A DNA stretch of 64,000 nt, taken from Marinobacter salarius. Lineage in GTDB: Bacteria > Pseudomonadota > Gammaproteobacteria > Pseudomonadales > Oleiphilaceae. Shown piece by piece: positions 1 through 11,053 of the stretch (within the stretch, counting starts at the first letter, position 1; each line of letters begins with the position of its first letter). The stretch lies in contig CP007152.1 of NCBI GenBank assembly GCA_000831005.1, forward strand, positions 3,038,001 to 3,102,000, read 5' to 3'. Below the pieces are notes generated by a model, which worked only from the letters and a program-made list of their open reading frames with translations, was not told where the DNA came from and did no database searches. The translations under genes were made by a program, and so were the position numbers.

Positions 1-1
1 C

Positions 2-409
2 GTCGTCGCCACGCACAACCTGGCCTTCGGCGTGCTGGCAGGCGTGCTTCTGGCGGCCCTGTTCTTCGCCAACAAGGTGGGCCATTACATGCTGGTGACG
101 TCCGACTTTGACGAAGCGACTGACACCCGCACCTACAACGTTGTCGGGCAGGTGTTCTTCAGTTCCTCGGAAAAATTCACGGAATCCTTTGATTTCAAGG
201 AAGCAGTGGATAATGTGGTGATTGACCTGACCCGGGCTCACTTCTGGGACATTACGGCAGTGGGCGCTCTGGACAAGGCCGTTATCAAGTTCCGTCGCGA
301 AGGTGCGGAGGTGGAGATTATCGGGCTGAATGAAGCCAGCGCCACCATTGTTGACCGCTTTGGGGTGCACGATAAACCCGACGCCGTTGACCAGTTGATG
401 GCGCACTGA
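2..409 (+). CDS. SulP-family anion transporter, C-terminal part (STAS domain)
   Basis: The frame is open from the left edge, so the N-terminal membrane domain lies outside the window. The visible 135 residues begin in the last membrane helix ([19 protein letters not shown]). They continue into a cytoplasmic STAS domain, recognisable from [20 protein letters not shown] and the following strand [11 protein letters not shown]. SulP proteins carry sulfate, bicarbonate or dicarboxylates, and STAS is their regulatory domain; the substrate cannot be read here. The universal stress protein gene follows almost directly, which suggests co-transcription. The true start is upstream of the window. Confidence 0.88.
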
Positions 410-485
410 TATGACACAAGCCAAGGAATTCAAAGACGTAACCGGTCAGAATAACAACCACAAGGATCACCAAGGCGAGGTTGAA

Positions 486-1337
486 ATGCTACGAGTAGTT
501 GCCTGTATCGACGGCTCCCGGGCTGCACCGGCGGTGTGTGATTACGCTGCCTGGGCCAGCAAGCACATGGAAACCCCGATGACTCTGCTGCACGTTCTCG
601 ACGAGGAACGCTATCCAACAGAGCCAGACCTGGCTGGTAGCATTGGCTTGGGAAGCCGTGAACAGCTGATGGATGAGCTTGCCGAGCTTGACCGCAAGCG
701 TTCCAAGCTGGCCCTGGAACACGGCCATCACATGCTCGATGAGGCAGAACACCGGGTGAAGGAACAGGGCATTGACGACGTGATCAAGCGCCAGCGCCAT
801 GGGGATCTGACGGAATCCTTGCTGGCCCTGGAAAACCAGACCCGTCTGCTGGTCATGGGGCTGCACGGTGAGAGCAGTTCAGACCGTGACGTACATGTGG
901 GCAGCCAACTGGAAACGGTGATTCGTAGTGTCCACCGCCCGATTCTTCTGGTTCCGGACGAGTACGAGCAGCCAAAGAGCGCCATGCTGGCTTTTGACGG
1001 CAGCGCCACGGCGTTCAAGGGCGTGGAACTTCTGGCGGGTAGCCCGGTACTGAAAGGCATGCCGATTCATCTGGTGATGATTGGAGCGGACACCAATGAC
1101 CGCTGGGAACAGCTCAAGAAAGCAGAGAAGATGCTGGGTGACCTTGGCTCCGACATCACCCTCGCGATCCGCGCCGGGGATGTAGAGCCAACGCTCCACG
1201 CCTACCAGGAAGAACACGACATCGACATCCTGGTAATGGGTGCCTATGGCCATTCACGAATTCGACAGTTCCTGGTGGGAAGCACCACAACCACCATGCT
1301 GAAAACCGCGAAAAAGCCGCTGGTGATCCTGCGCTAA
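486..1337 (+). CDS. Tandem-domain universal stress protein (UspA family)
   Basis: About 283 residues in two UspA domains. The second carries the full ATP-binding signature G-2x-G-9x-G(S/T), seen as GAYGHSRIRQFLVGS near the C-terminus. The first has a looser version (GLHGESSSDRDVHVGS) with one extra residue between the last two glycines. I chose the ATG at 486 because AGGCGAGG sits five bases before it and the protein then begins directly with the first beta strand (MLRVVACIDGS). An in-frame ATG at 411, two bases after the SulP stop, has no Shine-Dalgarno and would add 25 polar residues. The gene overlaps the next one (TAATG at 1335-1339). SulP-Usp pairs are common, and the Usp may modulate the transporter (inference). 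Confidence 0.9.
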   Translation: MLRVVACIDGSRAAPAVCDYAAWASKHMETPMTLLHVLDEERYPTEPDLAGSIGLGSREQLMDELAELDRKRSKLALEHGHHMLDEAEHRVKEQGIDDVIKRQRHGDLTESLLALENQTRLLVMGLHGESSSDRDVHVGSQLETVIRSVHRPILLVPDEYEQPKSAMLAFDGSATAFKGVELLAGSPVLKGMPIHLVMIGADTNDRWEQLKKAEKMLGDLGSDITLAIRAGDVEPTLHAYQEEHDIDILVMGAYGHSRIRQFLVGSTTTTMLKTAKKPLVILR

Positions 1338-2916
1338 TGCTGAACCAGCGGCGCTCTGTTGCCGGGCTGATGTCGGCCCGCTACTTTCTGTCGGGGCTGC
1401 TAGTGCTGCTGGTCTTGCTGACAGGCTGTGCCGGCAGTTTGCCGCCGGCCACTCATTCCGGAGCCGAAACCGCCGTGTTGACTGACGACAGTTTCCTTTC
1501 CAGCCAGTCCCGGCAACGGCTGGCTGACGCGAACGGTCAATCCGGTTATTACCTGCTGGATTCTGGTCAGGACGCCTTCCTGTACCGAGCCGCTATGATT
1601 GAGGCGGCTGAACACCGTATTGATGCTCAGTACTACATCTGGAACCGTGATGACTCCGGACTGCACCTGGCCGGCCGGCTGTTACTCGCAGCGGACCGTG
1701 GTGTTAAGGTCCGGCTGCTGCTGGATGACTTTAACGCCGAGCGGATCGGCGAATTGTTTGCTTCCCTGGATACCCACCCAAATATTCATATTCGCATCTT
1801 CAACCCAGCCAGAAACCGCAGTGGCTGGGGCCGATGGGTATCGTTCCTGATGGATTTCCAGCGAATAAACCGCCGAATGCACAACAAGACATTTGTGGTT
1901 GACGGGACTGCGGGCATTGTCGGTGGTCGCAACATTGGTGATGAATATTTCGGCTTCGATGAGAGCCGCTATTTCAGGGATCGCGATGTCCTTGCCCTGG
2001 GGCCGGTGGTTGAGGGTATGGCGGATAATTTCCAGGCTTACTGGAGCAGCCCCTGGGCTTACCCCGCTTCCGATCTATACACATCCATGCCTACTGGCGC
2101 GGAGTTGGCCGAGACGCTGGAGGGGCTTCGGCAGCAGGCTATCGCACAACCCCGGCTTCCCATCTCTGCCCCCACCGGGGCGGAACAGGGCAGGTCTGAA
2201 CTGACCAGCGTGTTCAGCCGAATGACGATTGCTCAGGGGGAACTGGTGTTTGACCCTCCCCCTGAACATATGGACGCGCCATCCGAGACACCCAAACGGA
2301 GCGCACTGGCGTTGCAACGCCTGGCGCAGACAGCCACCCGGGAAATCCTGATCGAGTCCGCCTACCTCATTCTTGCCAGGGAACAGTTGCAGGCCCTGGG
2401 TGCCAATGAGCGCCCGCAACTGGAGGTTGCCGCGCTGACCAACTCTCTGGCTTCCAATGATCTGGTCACCAACCATGCCGGTTATGCCCGCTGGCGTCCC
2501 TACATGCTGGAGCAGGGCATACACATCTACGAACTCAAGCCTGATGCCGAGGCCTGTCGGCAATGGTTGAGTGACGACGCCTTCTGCGCCACGGGCGAGG
2601 TCAGCCTGCACTCCAAATCAGTGGTTTTTGATCGCAGCACCCTGGTGGTGGGGTCCTTCAACGTTAACCTCCGCTCCATCTACCTCAACGGTGAAACCGT
2701 ATTGATTATCCACAGTGCCGACCTGGCAGAGCGTGTGGCGGAGGATGTACGGCTGACCATGGCGCCCGGCAATAGCTGGGAGGTGGCTCTGGACGAGGAC
2801 GGAGATCTCCAGTGGCGCAGCGGTGAGGCAGTGTTCACCAGCGAGCGACCGTCCATTGGTGGCGCCGGGCGAAGTCCGGGTTCTTGTCATGGTTGCCTAT
2901 CGAGAAGTACCTTTAG
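1337..2916 (+). CDS. Phospholipase D-family lipoprotein (frameshifted near 2846)
   Basis: About 526 residues when repaired. A lipoprotein signal (LLVLLVLLTGCAG) puts it in the envelope. Two HxKx4D motifs are present: H182/K184/D189 (RMHNKTFVVD) and H425/K427/D432 (SLHSKSVVFD). This is the paired catalytic layout of the PLD superfamily, which hydrolyses or transfers phosphodiesters; cardiolipin-synthase-like or phospholipase activity are both possible. As written, the frame runs on to 3001 with an unrelated tail. Shifting by one base near 2846 restores a plausible family-like ending (WWRRAKSGFLSWLPIEKYL) that stops at 2914-2916. The start overlaps the Usp stop codon, so translational coupling is likely. 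Confidence 0.85.
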
Positions 2917-3058
2917 GCTTGGTCGTGATCTTTATCCTTTTGGATGTCAGGCATCGCGGGGGGGAGGGGAATCCAATATTAGTTGGCGTACCCTTGTTTG
3001 AATTGATGTATTTGATTGTGGGCAGTGAGCGCTGAAAATCTCTAAGCTGGAGACTTTG

Positions 3059-3769
3059 ATGAAATTATCGACGATTGTGCTTTTGGTGTTTGTTTTCGCT
3101 GGGTGCACAACATCCGTGAAAATGGGTGATCGACCGGCCAATAAAATCGAGATTGTGGATGTTAAGAACTATTCTCTTGGTGAGCCAGCAACGGCCTATG
3201 TCGGCGATCCTATTGTAGTTCGAAAATCTTATAAGGCTGTTGTGAAGAAAGACCTTTACCGGGCAAACAATGACTTCGTGCTTGAGGGCGGTATTGGCTC
3301 TGTTGCGATCTATCTCGACGGCTCTGCTGGAAATACTTACCGCATTGCTGGAACGAATGAAAAAGGCAATCCAGCTCTCGCGATCCCTAACTCAACGTTG
3401 ATGTTCGGAGTAAATGAGAACGGCCAATGGGATCAAACTGTAATGTCTCCTAGTTTTTGGTCTAGCCCCGTTGGCAGCGGTTCAGGATACGATCTGTTAC
3501 CTGAGGACACGACATTCTCACCTGTGGAGTCGACAACCCCAGTTTCTGAAGCGGGGTACTTGAACCACGAATTGGTCTTTACAGGTCAGGGTGCAAACGG
3601 TATCAACTTGCTTTATCGCGAATATACGTTCGAGAATATGGCTCGCTCCGCTTACACTCAGGAACTCGTATATCCTCTGGACACTGATGAAATCCGGTTC
3701 CGGAACTATCAGATTGATATGGTCTCTGTGTCGTCTTCGGAAATTAAATATATCGTCAATTCTGACTAG
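3059..3769 (+). CDS. Hypothetical lipoprotein
   Basis: 236 residues with a lipobox (VFAGC) after a short hydrophobic leader (MKLSTIVLLVFVFAGC). The ATG at 3059 has GGAG six bases upstream; the TTG at 3056 is a less likely start. The mature part is Ser/Thr/Tyr-rich with alternating hydrophobic residues, suggesting beta structure, and has few lysines after the first third. I do not recognise the family. Base composition and codon use are noticeably more AT-rich than the flanking genes, and it sits beside an abortive-infection gene and a gene remnant. Horizontal acquisition is therefore plausible (inference). Confidence 0.7.
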   Translation: MKLSTIVLLVFVFAGCTTSVKMGDRPANKIEIVDVKNYSLGEPATAYVGDPIVVRKSYKAVVKKDLYRANNDFVLEGGIGSVAIYLDGSAGNTYRIAGTNEKGNPALAIPNSTLMFGVNENGQWDQTVMSPSFWSSPVGSGSGYDLLPEDTTFSPVESTTPVSEAGYLNHELVFTGQGANGINLLYREYTFENMARSAYTQELVYPLDTDEIRFRNYQIDMVSVSSSEIKYIVNSD

Positions 3770-3802
3770 AAGAAGGTTTTGATAGGGTTGGCAGATGAAT
3801 AG

Positions 3803-3940
3803 GTTATTTGTATTGAGCAGACTCTGGACCTTTTAAAGAGCAGAAAGAAGGGGGCTGATGCAGCAGAGCCCCTTACCGGAAAACGCCGCGTCAAAATCAT
3901 TGAAATGTCCCTGCCACCTCCTGAGGCACAACACGACTAA
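3803..3940 (+). pseudogene. Orphan C-terminal gene remnant
   Basis: An open frame of 45 codons with no usable start codon; a TAG at 3800 closes it upstream. The residues are strongly coding-like: EQTLDLLKSRKKGADAAEPL, then TGKRRVKIIEMSLPPPEAQH, then D and TAA. It looks like the last part of a larger protein whose front is gone. I cannot assign a family. The 3770-4164 stretch otherwise holds only the promoter, RNA and terminator listed next. Confidence 0.35.
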
Positions 3941-4027
3941 GGCTGGAGAGTATTTTTGTCCGACAAGCTGACCCCGAACACCAGCGCGCATCGACCGTGC
4001 CTTTTCCGGCAAAACCGGGATAGCCGC

Positions 4028-4057
4028 TTGCGTTTAGTGTCGGGGATTCGTTATAGT
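4028..4057 (+). promoter_or_regulatory. Predicted sigma70 promoter for the abi-associated RNA
   Basis: TTGCGT (4028-4033), an 18-base spacer, then TATAGT (4052-4057). The expected start is about 4064, just before the hairpin arm of the short RNA described next. Confidence 0.45.
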
Positions 4058-4063
4058 TCAGGT

Positions 4064-4124
4064 AACACAGCCACCACGCTTAGTACCCTCTCGGGGGATA
4101 TCGCGCAACCTTGGTGGCTTTTTT
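4064..4124 (+). ncRNA. Candidate abi-associated structured RNA with intrinsic terminator
   Basis: A roughly 61-nt transcript is predicted between the promoter and the Abi gene. The arms AGCCACCA (4069-4076) and TGGTGGCT (4112-4119) pair perfectly over 8 bp and are followed by TTTTT, making a rho-independent terminator. Inside it, CGC (4077-4079) pairs with GCG (4103-4105), and 4084-4088 pairs with 4095-4100 with one bulged base, giving a rod-like RNA. Known biology: Abi_2/AbiF-type genes are often preceded by a conserved noncoding RNA (the abiF motif), and type III toxin-antitoxin loci use the same promoter-RNA-terminator-toxin order. I cannot confirm membership of that RNA family by eye. Confidence 0.5.
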
Positions 4125-4164
4125 ATGTCCGCTTTTTGCGCGTCAACAATGTCGGGGCCGCTCG

Positions 4165-5070
4165 GTGCTGAAGCCCTACCGCAAGGTTGCCCTTTCCTTC
4201 GCTGACCAGTTGCGGCTTCTGGAAGCCCGAGGGTTGACTGTTCCTGACCGGACGTTGGCGTTACGTCAGCTCAGTTCTATAAGCTACTACCGGCTGAGCG
4301 CCTATTGGTATCCCTTTCTGAAGCGCAACTTGCAGGGAAAAGTGACCGGCTCGTTCGAGACGGGTACGAACTTTAGTCAGGTGGTGCAGCTTTACGAATT
4401 CGACCGCCACCTGCGGCTCCTGGTTATAGATGCCATTGAGCGGGTTGAAGTGCATATCCGTACCCTAGTGACCTATCATCTTGGTCATCAATACGGGCCC
4501 TTCGGACACATTCAACCAGTTAATTTCCATCCCAATTTCGATCACGCCAAGTGGCTGACAAAACTGGAGGGCGAAGCTCTACAATCGAAAGATGCCTTCG
4601 TGGAGCACTTCAAGAGCAAGTATACCGGGTTTCCGACATTGCCGATTTGGATGTCAACGGAGGTGATGTCATTGGGGTCATTGTCCTTCTGCTACACGGG
4701 CCTGAAGAATCAGGACAAGCAACATATATCAAGGCAGCTTGGCATTCACCATAAGCGCCTGAAAGACTGGCTGCACACGCTTACTTATGTCCGAAATATC
4801 TGTGCCCACCACAGCCGTCTCTGGAATCGGGAGCTGGCGATCAAGCCGGAGAAGGTGCGCGACCCAGCGTGGAACTCGCCGATAACCCCGCGTCATGACA
4901 GGTTATTTTACGTCCTGCTGATTTTGCGTGTGTTGCTCAGAAGTAATCATAACGGCAACCAATGGGCGGAGAGCTGTAACGATTTGCTAGACACTTTTGC
5001 AAGCGAAGAAAGATATCGGACCGCCATGGGAATGCCTTCTGACTGGAAGTTCCATCCTCTATGGATCTGA
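4165..5070 (+). CDS. Abi_2-family abortive-infection protein (HEPN fold)
   Basis: About 301 residues. The N-terminus (KPYRKVALSFADQLRLLEAR, then SSISYYRLSAYWYPF) is typical of the Abi_2/AbiD/AbiF family. Near the C-terminus RNICAHHSRLWNR supplies an Rx4H motif (R210, H215), the RNase signature of HEPN proteins; phage-induced RNA cleavage is the family expectation. The in-frame TTG at 4111 lies inside the upstream terminator stem, so I prefer the GTG at 4165, which also matches the usual family N-terminus. Expression would depend on read-through of the terminator ending at 4124, as in RNA-antitoxin modules (inference). The gene converges on the flavoprotein gene at 5104. Confidence 0.82.
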   Translation: MLKPYRKVALSFADQLRLLEARGLTVPDRTLALRQLSSISYYRLSAYWYPFLKRNLQGKVTGSFETGTNFSQVVQLYEFDRHLRLLVIDAIERVEVHIRTLVTYHLGHQYGPFGHIQPVNFHPNFDHAKWLTKLEGEALQSKDAFVEHFKSKYTGFPTLPIWMSTEVMSLGSLSFCYTGLKNQDKQHISRQLGIHHKRLKDWLHTLTYVRNICAHHSRLWNRELAIKPEKVRDPAWNSPITPRHDRLFYVLLILRVLLRSNHNGNQWAESCNDLLDTFASEERYRTAMGMPSDWKFHPLWI

Positions 5071-5103
5071 CGAAAAACAGCTATTGATATAATGGACAGC
5101 AGC

Positions 5104-6286
5104 TCAGACGTGCTGTCCAGCTGCCACGCCAGACGCCCATGCCCACTGAAAGTTATGGCCGCCAAGGTGTCCGGTAACATCCACCACCTCACCAATAAAG
5201 TACAGGTCAGGCTTGTCCAGAACCGCCATGGTTTTTGATGACAGCTGGCGGGTATCCACGCCACCCAGGGTTACTTCGGCCGTTCGATAGCCTTCGGTGC
5301 CGGCAGGTTTGATGGTCCATTGGTCCAGGGCGCGAGCACCTGCTCTATGTCGCTGTTTTTGTAGCCCTGCAATGGACCGGCCCAGCCGTGAACGTCGTTC
5401 AGGGCCTGGGCGAAGCGTTTGGGCAGGTGTTGCGCAAGGTATTGGGCCACCGTGGATTGCGGTTTTGAGTTACGCAGGTCGTGCAGGTCCTGTTCTACGT
5501 TGGTGGCGGGCAGCATATTGACGCTCAGGCTGTCGCCGGGGTGCCAGAAGCTGGAAATCTGCAGCATCGAAGGGCCGCTGAGCCCGCGGTGGGTGACCAG
5601 CATCGGTTCGCGGAAATGTTCGTTGTTGCAATGCACATCCACAGGGCAACTGACGCCGGACAGGGGCGCCAACTGTTCCTTCAGCTCCGGGTGCAGGGTG
5701 AAGGGCACCAACCTGCCCGGGTGGGCAGTACGGCAAGCCCGAACTGTTTCGCAATATCGTAGCCAAAGCCGGTTGCGCCCATGGTGGGGATGGACAGCCC
5801 ACCGCAGGCGATGACCAGGGATTCGCAGGTCAGGGTACCGCTGCTGGTTTGTAGCTGATAGCCGTGATCGACACCGCTGATTGTTTTAACGCTTGTCTTA
5901 AGTCGCACTTCCGCGCCAGCCCATTCGCATTCGGTGAGCAGCATATCGAGTATTTCCTTGCTGCTGTCCTTGCAGAATAGCTGCCCGGCGGCCTTCTCCT
6001 CGTGCTCGATGCCGTGGCGTTCCACCAAGTCCAGGAAGTGCTGGGGGGTGTAGCGTTTCAGGGCGGAGATGCAGTAGTGGGGATTGTCCGAGAGGAAGTT
6101 CGCCGGCGTGCTGTTGAGGTTGGTGAAGTTGCAACGGCCACCGCCGGACATAAGGATCTTCTTGCCGGGTTTGTTGGCGTGGTCGATCACCAGCACGCTA
6201 CGGCCGCGGTAGCCTGCAGTTAGAGCGCACATCAGGCCTGCGGCGCCGGCGCCTATGATGATGACGTCGTAGCTCGCCGTGTTCAT
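5104..6286 (-). CDS. HI0933/BaiN-type NAD(P)/FAD-dependent oxidoreductase (two frameshifts)
   Basis: About 394 residues after repair. The N-terminus has a Rossmann FAD motif (VIIIGAGAAGL), followed by GKKILMSGGGRCNFTN, the hallmark of the HI0933-like flavoprotein family. The C-terminus in the third frame (FIGEVVDVTGHLGGHNFQWA) is also diagnostic. The reading frame breaks near 5712 and near 5325; adding one base at each restores a continuous protein ending at TGA 5104-5106. Start ATG is at 6286-6284; an upstream in-frame ATG would add 13 atypical residues. The cellular substrate is unknown for most members. Confidence 0.85.
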
Positions 6287-6326
6287 CTGATGTTGTCCCG
6301 CTGCAGGGCTACGGAGTTCCGGCACG

Positions 6327-6418
6327 GGTTGAGGGCGGTCAGGGATACGCGGTGAATGCGTCCCTGTACGCTCGACAAAAACATCCCTGTTTTTGACGAT
6401 CCCTGACAGCTCTCAACC
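6327..6418. repeat. Palindromic intergenic element (about 92 bp)
   Basis: The outer arms 6327-6346 and 6399-6418 are inverted copies of 20 bases with three mismatches. An inner hairpin (AAAAAC...GTTTTT around 6377-6394) sits between them. The motifs TCAGGGAT, CGTCCCTG and ATCCCTGA recur across the element. This resembles the REP/BIME-like extragenic palindromes found near gene ends in marine gammaproteobacteria. Only one copy was noticed in this window. Confidence 0.6.
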
Positions 6419-6494
6419 TGCGCCTTGCCAAACATCTGTGCTTGTACCGCCCCGCATGTATTAGTTGGGCGCAGTATACATTTTTGCGGAGACG

Positions 6495-7304
6495 TTAGGG
6501 CAGTTGCACGGAACCTTCCATATAGAATGCCGCCTGGCCCGCAATGGCGACGCGGTCGCCCTTCAGTTCACATCGCAGAACGCCGCCTCTGTCGGACACC
6601 TGGTGTGCCAACAGGTGATCCTTGCCGAGTTTTTCGGCCCAGTAGGGCACCAGAATACTGTGGATTGAGCCGGTGACCGGGTCTTCATCAATGCCGCCGC
6701 CGGGGGCGAAGTAACGGCTGACGAAGTCGCAGTCATTGCCGGGTGCCGTAATGATGACACCTAGATTGCCAAGTTCTTTGAGCTTGCGGATGTCCGGCTG
6801 CGCGGTTTTTACCGCCGCTTCGTTTCCGAGGACGATGAGGTAATTGGTGTCTTTGGGAACAAAGAACGACGTGTTCGGGCAGCCTTCCAGGGCTTCCAGA
6901 ATCAGGCCGGGTGTCGGGCGTTCCTCAAAGCCCAGATTAGGGAAGTCCAGTTCCAGCCAGCCGTCGTCGGTCTGTTTCACTCCCAGGGGGCCGCTTTTGG
7001 ACTGGAATCGGATTTGCTCCTTTTTCCAGCCCAGCTTGTTGAAGAGGACCCAGGCGCTGGCGAGGGTGGCGTGGCCGCAGAGAGGCACTTCTATGTCGGG
7101 CGTGAACCAGCGTATGTGAAAGTCTTCTTCTGCGTTATCAGGAAGGGGCACCAGAAAGGCCGTTTCCGAGAGATGATTTTCCAGCGCCATTTTTTGCATG
7201 GTGTCGTCCGGCAGCCATTCTTCAAGTGGCATGACGGCAGCGGGGTTTCCGCCGAAAACCTGGCTGGCGAAGGCGTCGACCTGATATATCGGTAGTGTTT
7301 TCAT
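6495..7304 (-). CDS. PhzF-family isomerase-like protein
   Basis: 269 residues, the usual length for the PhzF/diaminopimelate-epimerase-like fold. Diagnostic segments are YQVDAFASQVFGGNPAAV at the N-terminus, the catalytic glutamate in LSETAF (E47), FTPDIEVPLCGHATLA in the first domain and PGGGIDEDPVTGSIHS in the second. Phenazine production is not implied: most PhzF relatives are stand-alone enzymes of unknown substrate. It is divergent from the MocR-type regulator that starts at 7495, so the 190-bp gap probably holds both promoters and the regulator may act on this gene (inference). Confidence 0.9.
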   Translation of the reverse strand: MKTLPIYQVDAFASQVFGGNPAAVMPLEEWLPDDTMQKMALENHLSETAFLVPLPDNAEEDFHIRWFTPDIEVPLCGHATLASAWVLFNKLGWKKEQIRFQSKSGPLGVKQTDDGWLELDFPNLGFEERPTPGLILEALEGCPNTSFFVPKDTNYLIVLGNEAAVKTAQPDIRKLKELGNLGVIITAPGNDCDFVSRYFAPGGGIDEDPVTGSIHSILVPYWAEKLGKDHLLAHQVSDRGGVLRCELKGDRVAIAGQAAFYMEGSVQLP

Positions 7305-7494
7305 TCTCTTTCCTTTCGCGAGATTCGATGAGTGATAGCCAGAGTCACCATTCTCCGTTTATGCAGACAACCATAACAGATTCAGATATTGTGATTTTGG
7401 ACCGGTACAGGCTTTTTTGTTCGACATCTGTGCTGGTAAGAATCTGTTTGATCTGTACTGCAGCCATTCTGGATTGATCTGGCAGGATGAAGCG

Positions 7495-8912
7495 ATGGGC
7501 ATTCTCTATAATCAGGTAGCAGACCAGTTACACGCATTGATTCGTGATGGGGTTTATCGCGAAGGTGAGCGGTTGCCTGGTGTTCGGGCGCTCAGTCGCC
7601 AGTTTGGCGTGAGCGTGTCAACGGTGCTTCAAGCACACCAGACGCTGGAGGCCCGAGGCTACCTCGAAGCGCGAGAGCGCAGCGGCTATTTTGTGCATCT
7701 GCCAGGCGGGATACACCAGAACCGGTGATGCAGAAGCACAAAGCCAAGCCGGTGCCGGTGAGTGCCCGTGACATGGCGCTTGATCTTTGTGCTGACGAAG
7801 AGAAACGCATGGTGCCTCTGGCGGCCGCTGTGCCACATCCCGATTTCCTGCCCGTGCGGCAGATCCAGCATGCCACCCTCTGGGCTGCACGGCGAGGGCT
7901 GGAAACATTAGACTATGCCTTTCCCGGCAAGATCGAGTATCGCCGTCAGGTGGCCCAGCGAATGGCCGCATTGGGGATTATTACCACGCCCGACGACATT
8001 CTTGCCACCAACGGTGCCCAGGAAGCCATTATTCTTGCCCTGCAGGCGGTCACTTCGCCTGGGGATATCGTGGTTGTCGAGTCACCATCGTTCCCGGGCA
8101 TCCTCCAGGCGCTGGACGTGGTTGGGCTCCGGGTCATTGAAGTGCCGACGCATCCTTCGGAAGGGCTGAGCCTGGAGGGATTGGAGCTGGCGCTGGAACA
8201 GTGGCCGGTGAAGGCATGCGTGGTGGTCCCCAATCACAGCAATCCCATGGGCGCGACGATGTCTGATCTTCGCAAGCAGCAGATGGTAAGGATGCTGGAA
8301 GCGGTGGGCGTTCCTTTGATTGAGGACGACATCTACGGCGATCTCTATTACGGCATGAATCGACCCAGACCGGCAAAGGTCTTTGATCGCACCGGCAATG
8401 TTATCTATTGCAACTCCTTCTCCAAGACCATTTCTCCGGGTTTACGGCTGGGATGGATGATGCCGGGAAAATACCTCGCCGAAGCACGGCAGCAGAAGTA
8501 TTTCAGTAATCTGGGTACGGCGAGTGTGCCCCAGATTGCCGTAGCGCATTTCCTGGAGCAGGGCGGTTACGACCGATACCTGCGTTCAGCCCGGCAGCGT
8601 TACCGCGAGGCAACGGACCGTATGCGTGCGGCAGTAGGACGCTCCTTCCCGGAAGGTACGGCTGTCAGCCGTCCCCAGGGCGGTTTCGTGCTGTGGGTTC
8701 AGCTTCCGGGCACAGTGTCCGGTACAGAGGTGTTTCGCCGGGCGCGGGAGGAGAATATCAACGTGGCTCCGGGCCTGATGTTCTCCACCACCGACAAGTA
8801 CGAAAACTGCCTGCGATTGAATGGTGCCAATCCCTGGAGTGAGCGGGTTGAGCAGGCCATTGCGCGCCTCGGTGCCATCGTAACGGCTGTGGCGGCTGAG
8901 TCCCGGGCCTGA
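7495..8912 (+). CDS. MocR/PdxR-type GntR regulator with aminotransferase domain (frameshifted near 7708)
   Basis: About 472 residues when repaired. Residues 1-70 form a GntR winged helix (GVRALSRQFGVSVSTVLQAH). The rest is a class I aminotransferase-like domain with the PLP-lysine motif NSFSKTISPGLRLGW (K311). The two parts lie in different frames; adding one base in the GGCGGGAT stretch near 7708 joins RSGYFVHLPG to DTPEPVMQKHKAKP. The start ATG at 7495 has CAGGA seven bases upstream. MocR proteins sense PLP or amino-acid adducts and usually control a neighbouring gene; the divergent PhzF gene is the obvious candidate. Confidence 0.87.
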
Positions 8913-8919
8913 CTCGGGC

Positions 8920-9557
8920 CTATTTTTTCCGCAGGCTCATCGGATCCAGCAGGCCGATGGCAACCGCAATGCCCGTAACATCCGGCACGCGCTCCACACC
9001 TAGCCGTTTCATTACGCGCGCCCTGTACAAGTCAATTGTCTTCACGCCGATGCCCAGTTGCTCCGCTATTTCCCTGCTGGTGTATCCTTGTGCCAATGGC
9101 ATGAATACATCCCGTTCCCGCCGTGTGAGAGAAGCGACAAGCGTGTCAGTGTGCTGGTCTCCACGTTGTTGACTATTGGTTTTCTGATGTTCCTGAAGGG
9201 CCTGCTGGACGCTATCCAGAAGAAGTTGTTCGTTGAATGGCTTCTCGATGAAATCAAAAGCCCCGGATTTGAAGGCGCGGACCACGATGGGCACATCCGC
9301 GTGTCCAGAGAGAAAGATGATGGGAAGTTGCGAGCCCCGTTTTTGAAGCTCTTCCTGAACGTTCAGCCGCCGAGGCCAGGCATCCGTATGTCGAGGACCA
9401 CGCAGCCGGTATGCTCCGGATTAACGGCGTTCAGAAATTGCCGGCCATCTGCATAAGGCTGCACGTGTAGGCCAACGGACTCCAGCAGCCACTGGGTGGA
9501 CTCCAGCATGCCGGCATCATCGTCTACAACATAAACGGTATGGGCTGAATCACTCAT
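8920..9557 (-). CDS. FixJ/NarL-type response regulator (frameshifted near 9367)
   Basis: About 212 residues. Receiver domain with the acidic pocket (VYVVDDDAG), phosphoacceptor D56 in CVVLDIRMPG, and the KP motif FDFIEKPFNE. A LuxR-type helix-turn-helix follows (LTRRERDVFMPLAQGYTSRE). The frame breaks after RMPGLGG; one added base near 9367 gives GGLNVQEEL and joins the two halves. The start ATG at 9557 overlaps the last codons of the kinase gene, so the pair is translationally coupled. The likely target is the divergent acyl-CoA ligase operon beyond the kinase (inference). Confidence 0.87.
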
Positions 9558-11053
9558 CCTGGTCTGTCTCCCTAGGGTTGCCGGATTCATTCTTTTTGCA
9601 GTGGGGAGGAGGGAAGCGGCATATCAGTGTCAGGCCGCCACCGTCGGCTGGTTGTGCGTCCAGAAAGCCGCCATATCCCTCAATAATGGAGCGGCTCATG
9701 GAAAGTCCAAGGCCAAGTCCTTGAGGTTTGCTGGTATAGAAGGGCGTGAACATGTGTCGCAGGCCTTCCTCGTCAAGGCCCGTTCCGTGGTCAGTCACCT
9801 TGATCAGGGTCTCCTGCGCCGGTGTTATGCAGGTTTCAATCTTAATGTGAGATGGGGCGTTGTTATCCTGCCGGGCTTCGGTATTGGCGTCGATACCGTT
9901 GCGAATCAGGTTGATCAACACCTGCTCGAGTAAGACCGGGTCGGCAGTGAGTACGGGGTTGAGCGGCGTTAGGTTCTCCTGGATGACAACATTATGTTTG
10001 TCTGCATCCCATTGGCATAGTCGCTTGACGTTGGTTACCGCGTCATTGATGTTAACCGGCGCTGTGCGTTGCTGCCCCTTACGTAGAAAGGCCCGCAGTC
10101 GCTTGATGACTTCCGAGGCGCGGTTGGCGTGATGAGTGATTCGCTGCAGACCATCGTCCACCCGCTCGAGGTTCTCCGGGTACTCCAGGGCCAGTTTCAG
10201 ATAACGCTGGCTTGCACTGGCAAAGTTAACGATCGACGCCAGTGGCTGGTTCATCTCGTGGGCGATACTGGATGCCAGTTCGCCCAGTGTCGCCAGGCGG
10301 GCAGTGTGGGCGAGTTCTTCGGCCAGTCGGCGGTTGTTTTCTTCCGACTTTACCCTTGCGGTAATGTCTCGTGAGACGCTGACGGCTCGATCACTGCTCC
10401 GGTGTAGGTTTCCCTGATCGCCCGGCTGGCGATTTCAAACCATCGCTTGCTGCCGTCCCGGTGGGTGATCTCTATGGTCATGGTGGCGTAGCCTTCGTCC
10501 CGAAGCCGGTTACGGGCTTCCTCCATTTCGGCGCTGAAGGCATTGCTTCGGAATACCTCTTCAAGAGGTTTGCCCCTAAGTTCCTCAGGCCAGTACCCCA
10601 GCAGCTCCAGGATGCCGGCGTGGCATCAATGAACCTGCCATCCGGTGCATGCCGGGAAATAAGGTCTGTAGTGTTTTCGGTAATCAATCGGTAAAGCCGG
10701 CTGGATCGGGTTGCCTCGTCCAGTTTCCGAATGTTGTCTGTGACATCCCGTCCCCGTGCCAGAATCTGGCGAGAGTCCTGGTCGGGAATGAACGTCCACG
10801 ACAGGGTGGCCGAATGCAGACGACTCTCCACGCCTTCAATAGCGCGCCCCTGGGTAAGGCAGGCATTGATCAGAGCTGAGAAATTGACTGGTAGCAGTCT
10901 GATCGGGTTGTCGGTTCCGGTCTCCGCACACAGATCTTTCGCTGCCTGATTCAAGCCTAGCAGCTGGCCGTCGGAATCGAGTATAAGCCCTGCTTCAGGG
11001 TCGGAACTTGGCAGCTGGAAGGTTGTGATAGTGCTTCCTTGGTTATTTTTCAT
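9550..11053 (-). CDS. FixL-like PAS sensor histidine kinase (two frameshifts)
   Basis: About 501 residues after repair. An N-terminal PAS-like region is followed by a second PAS with its PAC segment (EITHRDGSKRWFEIASRAI). Next come the H-box SSIAHEMNQPLASI (H about 266) and an HATPase domain with the G2 box GLGLGLSMSRSIIEGYGG. No membrane segment is visible, so it is probably cytoplasmic. Frames break near 10615 and 10393; one base added at each restores continuity (AGILELLGYWPEELRGKP, then AVSVSRDITARV). It overlaps the response regulator start and is divergent from the acyl-CoA ligase. Confidence 0.85.

Follow-up and report, generated by a model that had tools for sequence, protein, structure and literature searches.

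A 64,000-nt stretch of Marinobacter salarius DNA (contig CP007152.1, positions 3,038,001 to 3,102,000; hereafter the window) carries an Abi_2 gene behind what looks like a short RNA with a promoter and terminator of its own, and the question raised by this locus is whether RNA and protein form an antitoxin-toxin pair of the type III or abiF-RNA kind, as a first-pass annotation had suggested. We consider the locus very probably an AbiF-type RNA-antitoxin (type III-like) module. Its parts are present and conserved, with covariation in the RNA, and they are homologous to an AbiF-RNA complex of solved structure; the suggested kind of module is upheld by the Abi_2 family of the protein, its match to PDB entry 8VZ6, and the homology of the RNA traced through our covariance model R1 and the orthologous locus L005.

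The locus and its protein

The promoter consists of a −35 element TTGCGT (4028–4033) and a −10 element TATAGT (4052–4057) with an 18-nt spacer; two orthologues (L003 and L004) have the identical −35 element and TATATT as the −10 element. The 5′ end of the RNA, the first base of AACACAGCC... at 4064, was placed by its distance from the −10 element, and a T-run (4119–4124) directly follows stem 1, from where 40 nt lead to the GTG start (Table 1). The arrangement described by the first-pass annotation, in which a TTGCGT-18-TATAGT promoter, an RNA of approximately 61 nt and a terminator precede the Abi start by 40 bp, is thus borne out in the sequence in all its elements, given the conservation of the RNA described below. 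Consensus scans of the window detected neither the promoter nor the terminator of the RNA; the promoter scan had a threshold of 9 of 12 matches, and the loop limit of the terminator scan was shorter than the loop of this RNA. Folding of the window RNA as a single sequence gave a weak signal (z-score −1.79, with 10 of 200 shuffles folding equally well). A main promoter located after the terminator, which the annotation had named as evidence against its proposal, would have to fit into those 40 nt, where the scan found none; that much speaks against it, yet the same scan misses the RNA's own promoter.

Table 1. Coordinates of the features discussed (positions without a locus number refer to the window; L numbers denote related loci)
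Feature	Position	Strand	Evidence
Sigma-70-type promoter TTGCGT-18-TATAGT of the RNA	4028..4057	+	sequence; 8/12 consensus matches
abiF-type small RNA, ~61 nt, intrinsic terminator at its end	4064..4124	+	R1 covariance model, clade conservation
Stem 1: 4069–4075 paired with 4113–4119; doubles as terminator stem	4069..4119	+	covariation
Stem 2: CGC 4077–4079 paired with GCG 4103–4105; closes variable 23-nt loop	4077..4105	+	clade alignment, RNAalifold
3′ internal-loop strand CAACCTT, conserved	4106..4112	+	invariant in clade alignment
abi gene, predicted Abi_2/AbiD/AbiF HEPN RNase, 301 aa, GTG start	4165..5070	+	PF07751, PADLOC AbiD, Foldseek
Catalytic motif RNICAH (R210 to H215)	4792..4809	+	sequence; aligned to 8VZ6 R210/H215
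Accessory interval with module and 237-aa ORF	2922..5110	.	blastn of 11 related loci against the window
Convergent loci	L015, L021–L025, L027, L028, L030, L031, L100, L106, L116, L118, L122		
Convergent loci, continued	L124, L129–L131, L133–L137, L140		
abiF-type RNAs in type I restriction loci	L189 7517, 8590, 12372; L190 6486, 5179, 5109		
Viral loci with stand-alone RNA	L520–L523, L525–L527; L221, L255, L283, L334, L341, L401 and others		

The protein is predicted to be an Abi_2/AbiD/AbiF HEPN RNase, with matches to PF07751 (Abi_2; E = 1.7e-58, 198.4 bits against a cut-off of 25.6) and to the PADLOC AbiD profile (E = 3e-74). Counted from the GTG at 4165, the Rx4H RNase motif that had been read at R210/H215 is present as RNICAH at residues 210–215, with the arginine codon at 4792, and both R and H are invariant in all 25 proteins aligned. 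These residues align with R210 and H215 of PbAbiF (PDB 8VZ6) in a full-length match. An AlphaFold2 model of the protein (pLDDT 90.6) retrieved 8vz6_A with Foldseek over its full length (E = 6.6e-18, TM 0.88, 30% identity in the structural alignment), and no other PDB chain was found at E ≤ 0.001. According to the accessible part of PMC12373285, a PbAbiF variant with R210A and H215A is inactive.

Conservation and family of the RNA

Covariance model R1 was built from 24 RNAs, all from outside the 15-protein clade of the window, the nearest included being those of L050 and L053. Its sole match in the window, at 4064–4129 (47.6 bits, E = 4.1e-12), scores well above the approximately 36 bits below which the model is unspecific, and in a search of the whole genome the window RNA was the one match at E ≤ 0.01. 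R1 also matches an RNA in all 14 other loci of the clade (weakest E = 2.5e-6), and the same RNA precedes the gene in seven orthologues of the order sample at 55–79% identity; the stem described by the first-pass annotation was found conserved upstream of Abi_2 homologues.

In the clade alignment (12 rows, 11 distinct RNAs), the two stems are paired in 99.1% of cells, and six cells are changed on both sides, which none of 500 shuffles reach; counted as pairs with a two-sided change, there are two, a number reached by 214 of 500 shuffles and not above chance. The outer alignment of 24 rows has five such pairs, with 0 of 500 shuffles as high. Stem 1 has seven pairs, of which four show two-sided changes in the outer alignment and two in that of the clade. 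Of the 56 other upstream RNAs that score higher with R1 among 79, 36 have a sigma-70 match of at least 9/12 ahead of them, as do 20 of 24 convergent RNAs, a layout treated below, compared with 3% in shuffles. As far as comparison of sequences can tell, it is this conservation, not the single-sequence tests, that confirms the window RNA as real. That the stem-loop does no more than terminate the upstream 237-aa gene (3056–3769), which lies on the same strand with the stem-loop downstream of it, has a next to negligible chance of being right, since the RNA has its own promoter, keeps its pairing, and accompanies abi across genomes with differing upstream genes.

The annotation had proposed a search with the Rfam abiF covariance model, and this came out negative: RF03085 has no match in the window at its gathering threshold (37 bits) or at E values up to 10. 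When scanned at E = 0.5, it missed the window locus and five of six other loci of the clade; the exception was L005, an orthologue with a short loop, whose RNA lies above the cut-off with 41.2 bits. The window RNA shares with RF03085 its two stems, the asymmetric 3′ internal loop, and the position before an Abi_2 gene, whereas its loop has 23 nt (4080–4102) as opposed to 11 nt in the Rfam consensus, and it is probably because of this loop that the model misses it. R1 and RF03085 coincide in L005, in L013 (an R1 seed), and in 13 of 16 viral loci. Through R1 and L005, the window RNA is assigned by homology to the abiF RNA family. Another candidate identity, isrD, was the best of the weak Rfam matches and was dismissed at an E value of only 3.8.

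Across 390 genomes of the order, R1 gave 51 matches of at least 36.4 bits, of which 30 (9 R1 seeds and 21 others) immediately precede an Abi_2 gene in the same orientation. Four were labelled as downstream on the same strand, three of which precede hsdS and one a degraded abi, and 17 of the 51 have no Abi_2 match within 1.5 kb, so that the RNA alone is no proof of an antitoxin. Some R1 match at E = 0.01 occurs in 144 of the 390 genomes, mostly in short terminator-like stretches. In three loci (L049, L051, and L052) the abi frames look broken and the preceding RNA is intact, and in four others (L046, L050, L085, and L124) two or three abiF-type RNAs stand near one abi gene.

Known systems and genomic setting

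In ToxIN, an RNA antitoxin lies ahead of an RNase toxin with a terminator between them. The window locus, judged by sequence and conservation, shares this layout of type III systems; ToxN, to our knowledge, is not a HEPN protein. Type III antitoxins are described in the accessible part of PMC5449768 as tandem repeats, whereas the window RNA is a single unit; some relatives (L046, L050, L085) have two or three.

Closer parallels come from AbiF systems. AbiFCd/RCd22, from the phi027 prophage of Clostridioides difficile, has a SigA promoter, a short terminated RNA, a toxin made by read-through, and direct neutralisation of protein by RNA, according to the portion of PMC12373285 available to us. 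The window locus resembles it in its promoter, its short terminated RNA, a toxin that would be made by read-through, and an Abi_2 HEPN protein with R-x4-H; as far as that portion of the source goes, RCd22 transcripts measure 88–132 nt and contain two abiF motifs, whereas the window RNA has one motif and a longer loop, and RCd22 is prophage-borne, whereas the surroundings of the window module have no prophage signs on reading. PbAbiF resembles the window protein as a full-length homologue with the same catalytic residue numbers; the protein of 8VZ6 is an RNA-bound dimer, as stated in the available parts of PMC12737573 and PMC12373285. The former, a review, also describes in its accessible part how PbAbiF is bound to the RNA AbiFr, two bulge nucleotides of which block the single-strand RNase, and by analogy with this description CAACCTT (4106–4112) is a possible toxin-contact bulge.

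If the window module behaves as its published relatives do, from which termination, read-through, binding, neutralisation, and toxicity are carried over here, the promoter would make a short folded RNA, and the closing stem and T-run would end most transcripts, leaving the cell with abundant RNA and scarce toxin mRNA. The HEPN RNase would be made by occasional read-through, and the RNA would bind the RNase dimer and block its active site; once the RNA is lost or titrated, as in phage infection, the RNase would cut single-stranded RNA and halt the cell. The RNA might instead be a guide or cleavage partner, directing the RNase in the manner of Cas13 rather than silencing it, an idea that draws on the grouping of Cas13 HEPN domains with AbiD/F (PMC12165695, in the part available). 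We think this very improbable, as the loop varies in length and sequence, unlike a spacer, and AbiF has no RNA-targeting specificity according to what could be consulted of a 2026 review (PMC12948488).

The module and a 237-aa ORF lie in an accessory interval, because this DNA is absent or replaced in same-genus loci. Among 11 such loci compared by blastn, the left and right genes are 23 and 28 nt apart in L197 and L199, approximately 694 nt of other DNA take the place of the module interval in L195 and L196, and L202 lacks a longer stretch (window positions 1339–5116); the remaining compared loci stop short of the left gene. The 237-aa ORF (3056–3769) has a lipoprotein-like start by eye and no Pfam match. 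On the minus strand, the neighbouring gene at 5100–6325, which we take to be flavoprotein-like, has an open frame of 243 aa compared with 394–452 aa in 20 same-genus genomes, and is either a pseudogene or the product of a sequencing error.

Relatives of the window module are mostly found in type I restriction loci. An HsdR-matching frame overlaps or directly follows the end of abi in 12 of 17 distinct loci (the 14 others of the clade plus L008, L050, and L053) and is absent there in L045, L048, L049, L051, and L052. The probable hsdR start overlaps the abi stop in L005, and HsdM, HsdS, and HsdR were confirmed by Pfam in L042. That Abi2 proteins are embedded in restriction-modification operons was already known (PMC3710099, accessible part). 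In the window, reading of the frames from 1 to 10,000 found no type I restriction genes.

Convergent, stand-alone and phage-borne relatives

Some Abi_2 genes of the order have an RNA after the gene, on the opposite strand and with a promoter-like sequence of its own, a layout first recognised by eye. Two further models were made, R2 from 12 convergent RNAs and R3 from 8 of a second subtype. In the R2 alignment, two-sided changes occur at three pairs, a count reached in 26 of 500 shuffles. Among the 29 R2 matches listed for the 390 genomes, 17 are downstream and convergent (10 of them R2 seeds) and 12 are without Abi_2. In a quick tree of 118 proteins, labelled by model as 79 upstream and 25 convergent and by eye only as 5 and 4, with 5 lacking an RNA, the 25 convergent cases fall in one clade (SH-aLRT 96); 20 of these 25 are R2 or R3 seeds, the non-seeds being L106, L021, L118, L122, and L140. 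The four cases labelled convergent by eye only, Bacteroidota loci with a similar element, form a separate group in the tree, and no RNA was found in L139, a long branch placed near the convergent clade. RNAs of the R2 type also stand upstream in L076, L079, and L087, so RNA subtype and layout are imperfectly tied. PbAbiF was considered as a convergent-type protein for its Prevotellaceae origin, an idea that found no support; it is nearer to the upstream-RNA locus L098 (E = 1e-69) than to L069 (3e-48).

Measured in 24 of the 25 convergent loci, the model match has its 3′ end between −22 and +14 nt relative to where the toxin stop codon ends (median 2), and a simple scan found a terminator in the direction of the toxin in only two of the 24. 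Because the RNA ends at the toxin stop and terminators in the toxin's direction are few, the toxin mRNA of these loci probably carries the complement of its antitoxin. In L185, L188, L025, and L030, the convergent RNA is followed by a relative of the candidate-defence gene of L185 (PADLOC PDC-S11, with a weak NucS-like domain); abi may or may not be present on the other side of the RNA.

Bacterial RNAs of this family also occur ahead of other genes, here described from single loci rather than counts. An RNA precedes hsdR with no abi between them in G276 (L182, 1038), for which the 390-genome search gave no Abi_2 match; one restriction locus of G381 has an R1 RNA before abi, another before hsdS, and another before hsdR, and G218 has one such RNA ahead of abi and two where hsdS begins. 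Schlafen-type helicase genes follow the RNA in L178 and L171, with a short ORF intervening in L178. The RNAs that precede hsdR in G276, and hsdS and hsdR in G381, are what one would expect if the RNA were a mere transcription attenuator, limiting read-through into abi (or hsdR in relatives) without binding the protein, and stem 1 is indeed a terminator stem. We nevertheless judge attenuation alone unlikely, since stem 2, the 3′ internal loop, and a 5′ AACA are conserved beyond the needs of a terminator, the RNAs of the convergent clade are unable to attenuate the toxin gene in cis, and a relative binds its toxin (PMC12373285, as far as available).

Two side observations concern further convergent arrangements. 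In seven genomes with varying left flanks (L169, L170, and L172–L176), an abiF-type RNA is convergent with a conserved ORF of 226–241 aa, a pair with the look of a small mobile cassette. The ORF was examined in one copy (L174), which has no Pfam, NCBIfam, or PADLOC match. At L170 4081–4128, a weak class-B RNA match (30.5 bits) starts from the stop codon of a HipA-type gene, with which it is convergent.

Two pattern scans of viral contigs gave at least 158 loci, with many pattern matches expected by chance, and among the matches listed an R1 RNA of at least 40 bits is present in 45 of the 158, representing 37 different sequences. An HMM search found an Abi_2 gene in none of these 45 viral stretches, again among the matches listed; 20 of the contigs (all shorter than 14 kb) were searched whole and 25 in part, where Abi_2 may lie elsewhere. 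The same HMM recovered 131 of 131 bacterial Abi_2 loci, mostly its own seeds, and 80 of 80 non-seed viral Abi_2 loci. Of 16 viral loci scanned with RF03085, 13 exceed its cut-off, and L229, L334, and L395 were missed. Among twenty nearby genes from 18 viral loci, 16 match a PHROGs family, and for 14 of these the family has a named function (e.g., terminase, portal, head protease, clamp loader, and primase). The RNA of L334, which has a clamp-loader gene among its neighbours, has CCACGCTTAGTA and CGCGCAACCTTGGTGG in common with the window RNA, a likeness partly selected for by the second pattern scan.

Searches with blastn placed such RNAs in named phages: the Aeromonas phages PZL-Ah8, PT2, T7-Ah, and PZL-Ah152, Salicola phage CGphi29, Acinetobacter phage Acj61, Roseobacter phage CRP-143, and S-CREM1, where the RNA was already annotated; three further matches were unnamed or partial. 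Apart from S-CREM1, we take these phages to be lytic from their kinship. RF03085 was called in all seven named phages scanned (44–58 bits), and none of the 72 phage records with Abi_2 in a tblastn search with the window protein as the one query bears the name of these phages, a tally by name that distant Abi_2 proteins could escape. In the four Aeromonas phages (annotated as Autographiviridae, T7-like), the RNA is flanked by the connector (head-to-tail) gene and the capsid assembly/scaffold gene; in CRP-143 it is between scaffolding and capsid genes, and in Acj61 it precedes a homing endonuclease gene. In PZL-Ah8, the RNA match follows an 18-mer at a distance of 10 nt; a second copy of this 18-mer, with one mismatch, lies 74 nt ahead of the major capsid gene (5 kb searched), and the 18-mer is probably a phage promoter. 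PT2 has nearly the same upstream sequence, and where the stem of PZL-Ah8 has C-G, that of PT2 has A-U, a double change. The PZL-Ah8 RNA is 91.7% identical over 91% to that of the bacterial AbiF locus L013, and the window RNA has no close copy among the named phages (best E = 0.5). Abi_2 is encoded by 82 viral stretches, and 25 of the 80 kept have an R1 RNA directly upstream; an argument for decoys from the rarity of Abi_2 in viruses was rejected on account of these 82.

In the accessible parts of the sources, an abiF RNA is reported in cyanophage S-CREM1, without mention of a decoy role (PMC9964418, PMC12197685), this phage is described as lytic (PMC9964418), and RNA mimicry is said to let phage PhiTE escape the type III system ToxIN (PMC5449768). 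The simplest reading of the phage-borne RNAs is that they are decoys; a phage RNA may also be a plain terminator or relic. In the search results and paper excerpts consulted, neither a convergent AbiD RNA nor an AbiF decoy is described. Tentatively, and doubting it slightly more than we believe it, we propose that the abiF-type RNA is contested between phage and host: toxin-less phage copies would be decoys that silence AbiF, and hosts would use the RNA in three ways, as a toxin leader (the case of the window), as an antitoxin gene placed convergently and antisense to the toxin mRNA at its 3′ end, and as a leader of other defence genes, namely hsdS, hsdR, and Schlafen-type helicase genes.

The window module adds to the known AbiF-RNA kind one whose RNA the Rfam model misses, and it belongs to a new branch of these modules, which are held to be ancestors of Cas13. 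Since the Rfam model largely misses the RNAs of this branch, annotation underestimates such RNA-toxin pairs. The convergent clade would represent a toxin-antitoxin arrangement whose two transcripts, the toxin mRNA and the antitoxin RNA, are in addition mutually antisense, and should phage RNAs silence AbiF, named phages would possess a natural counter-defence made of RNA.
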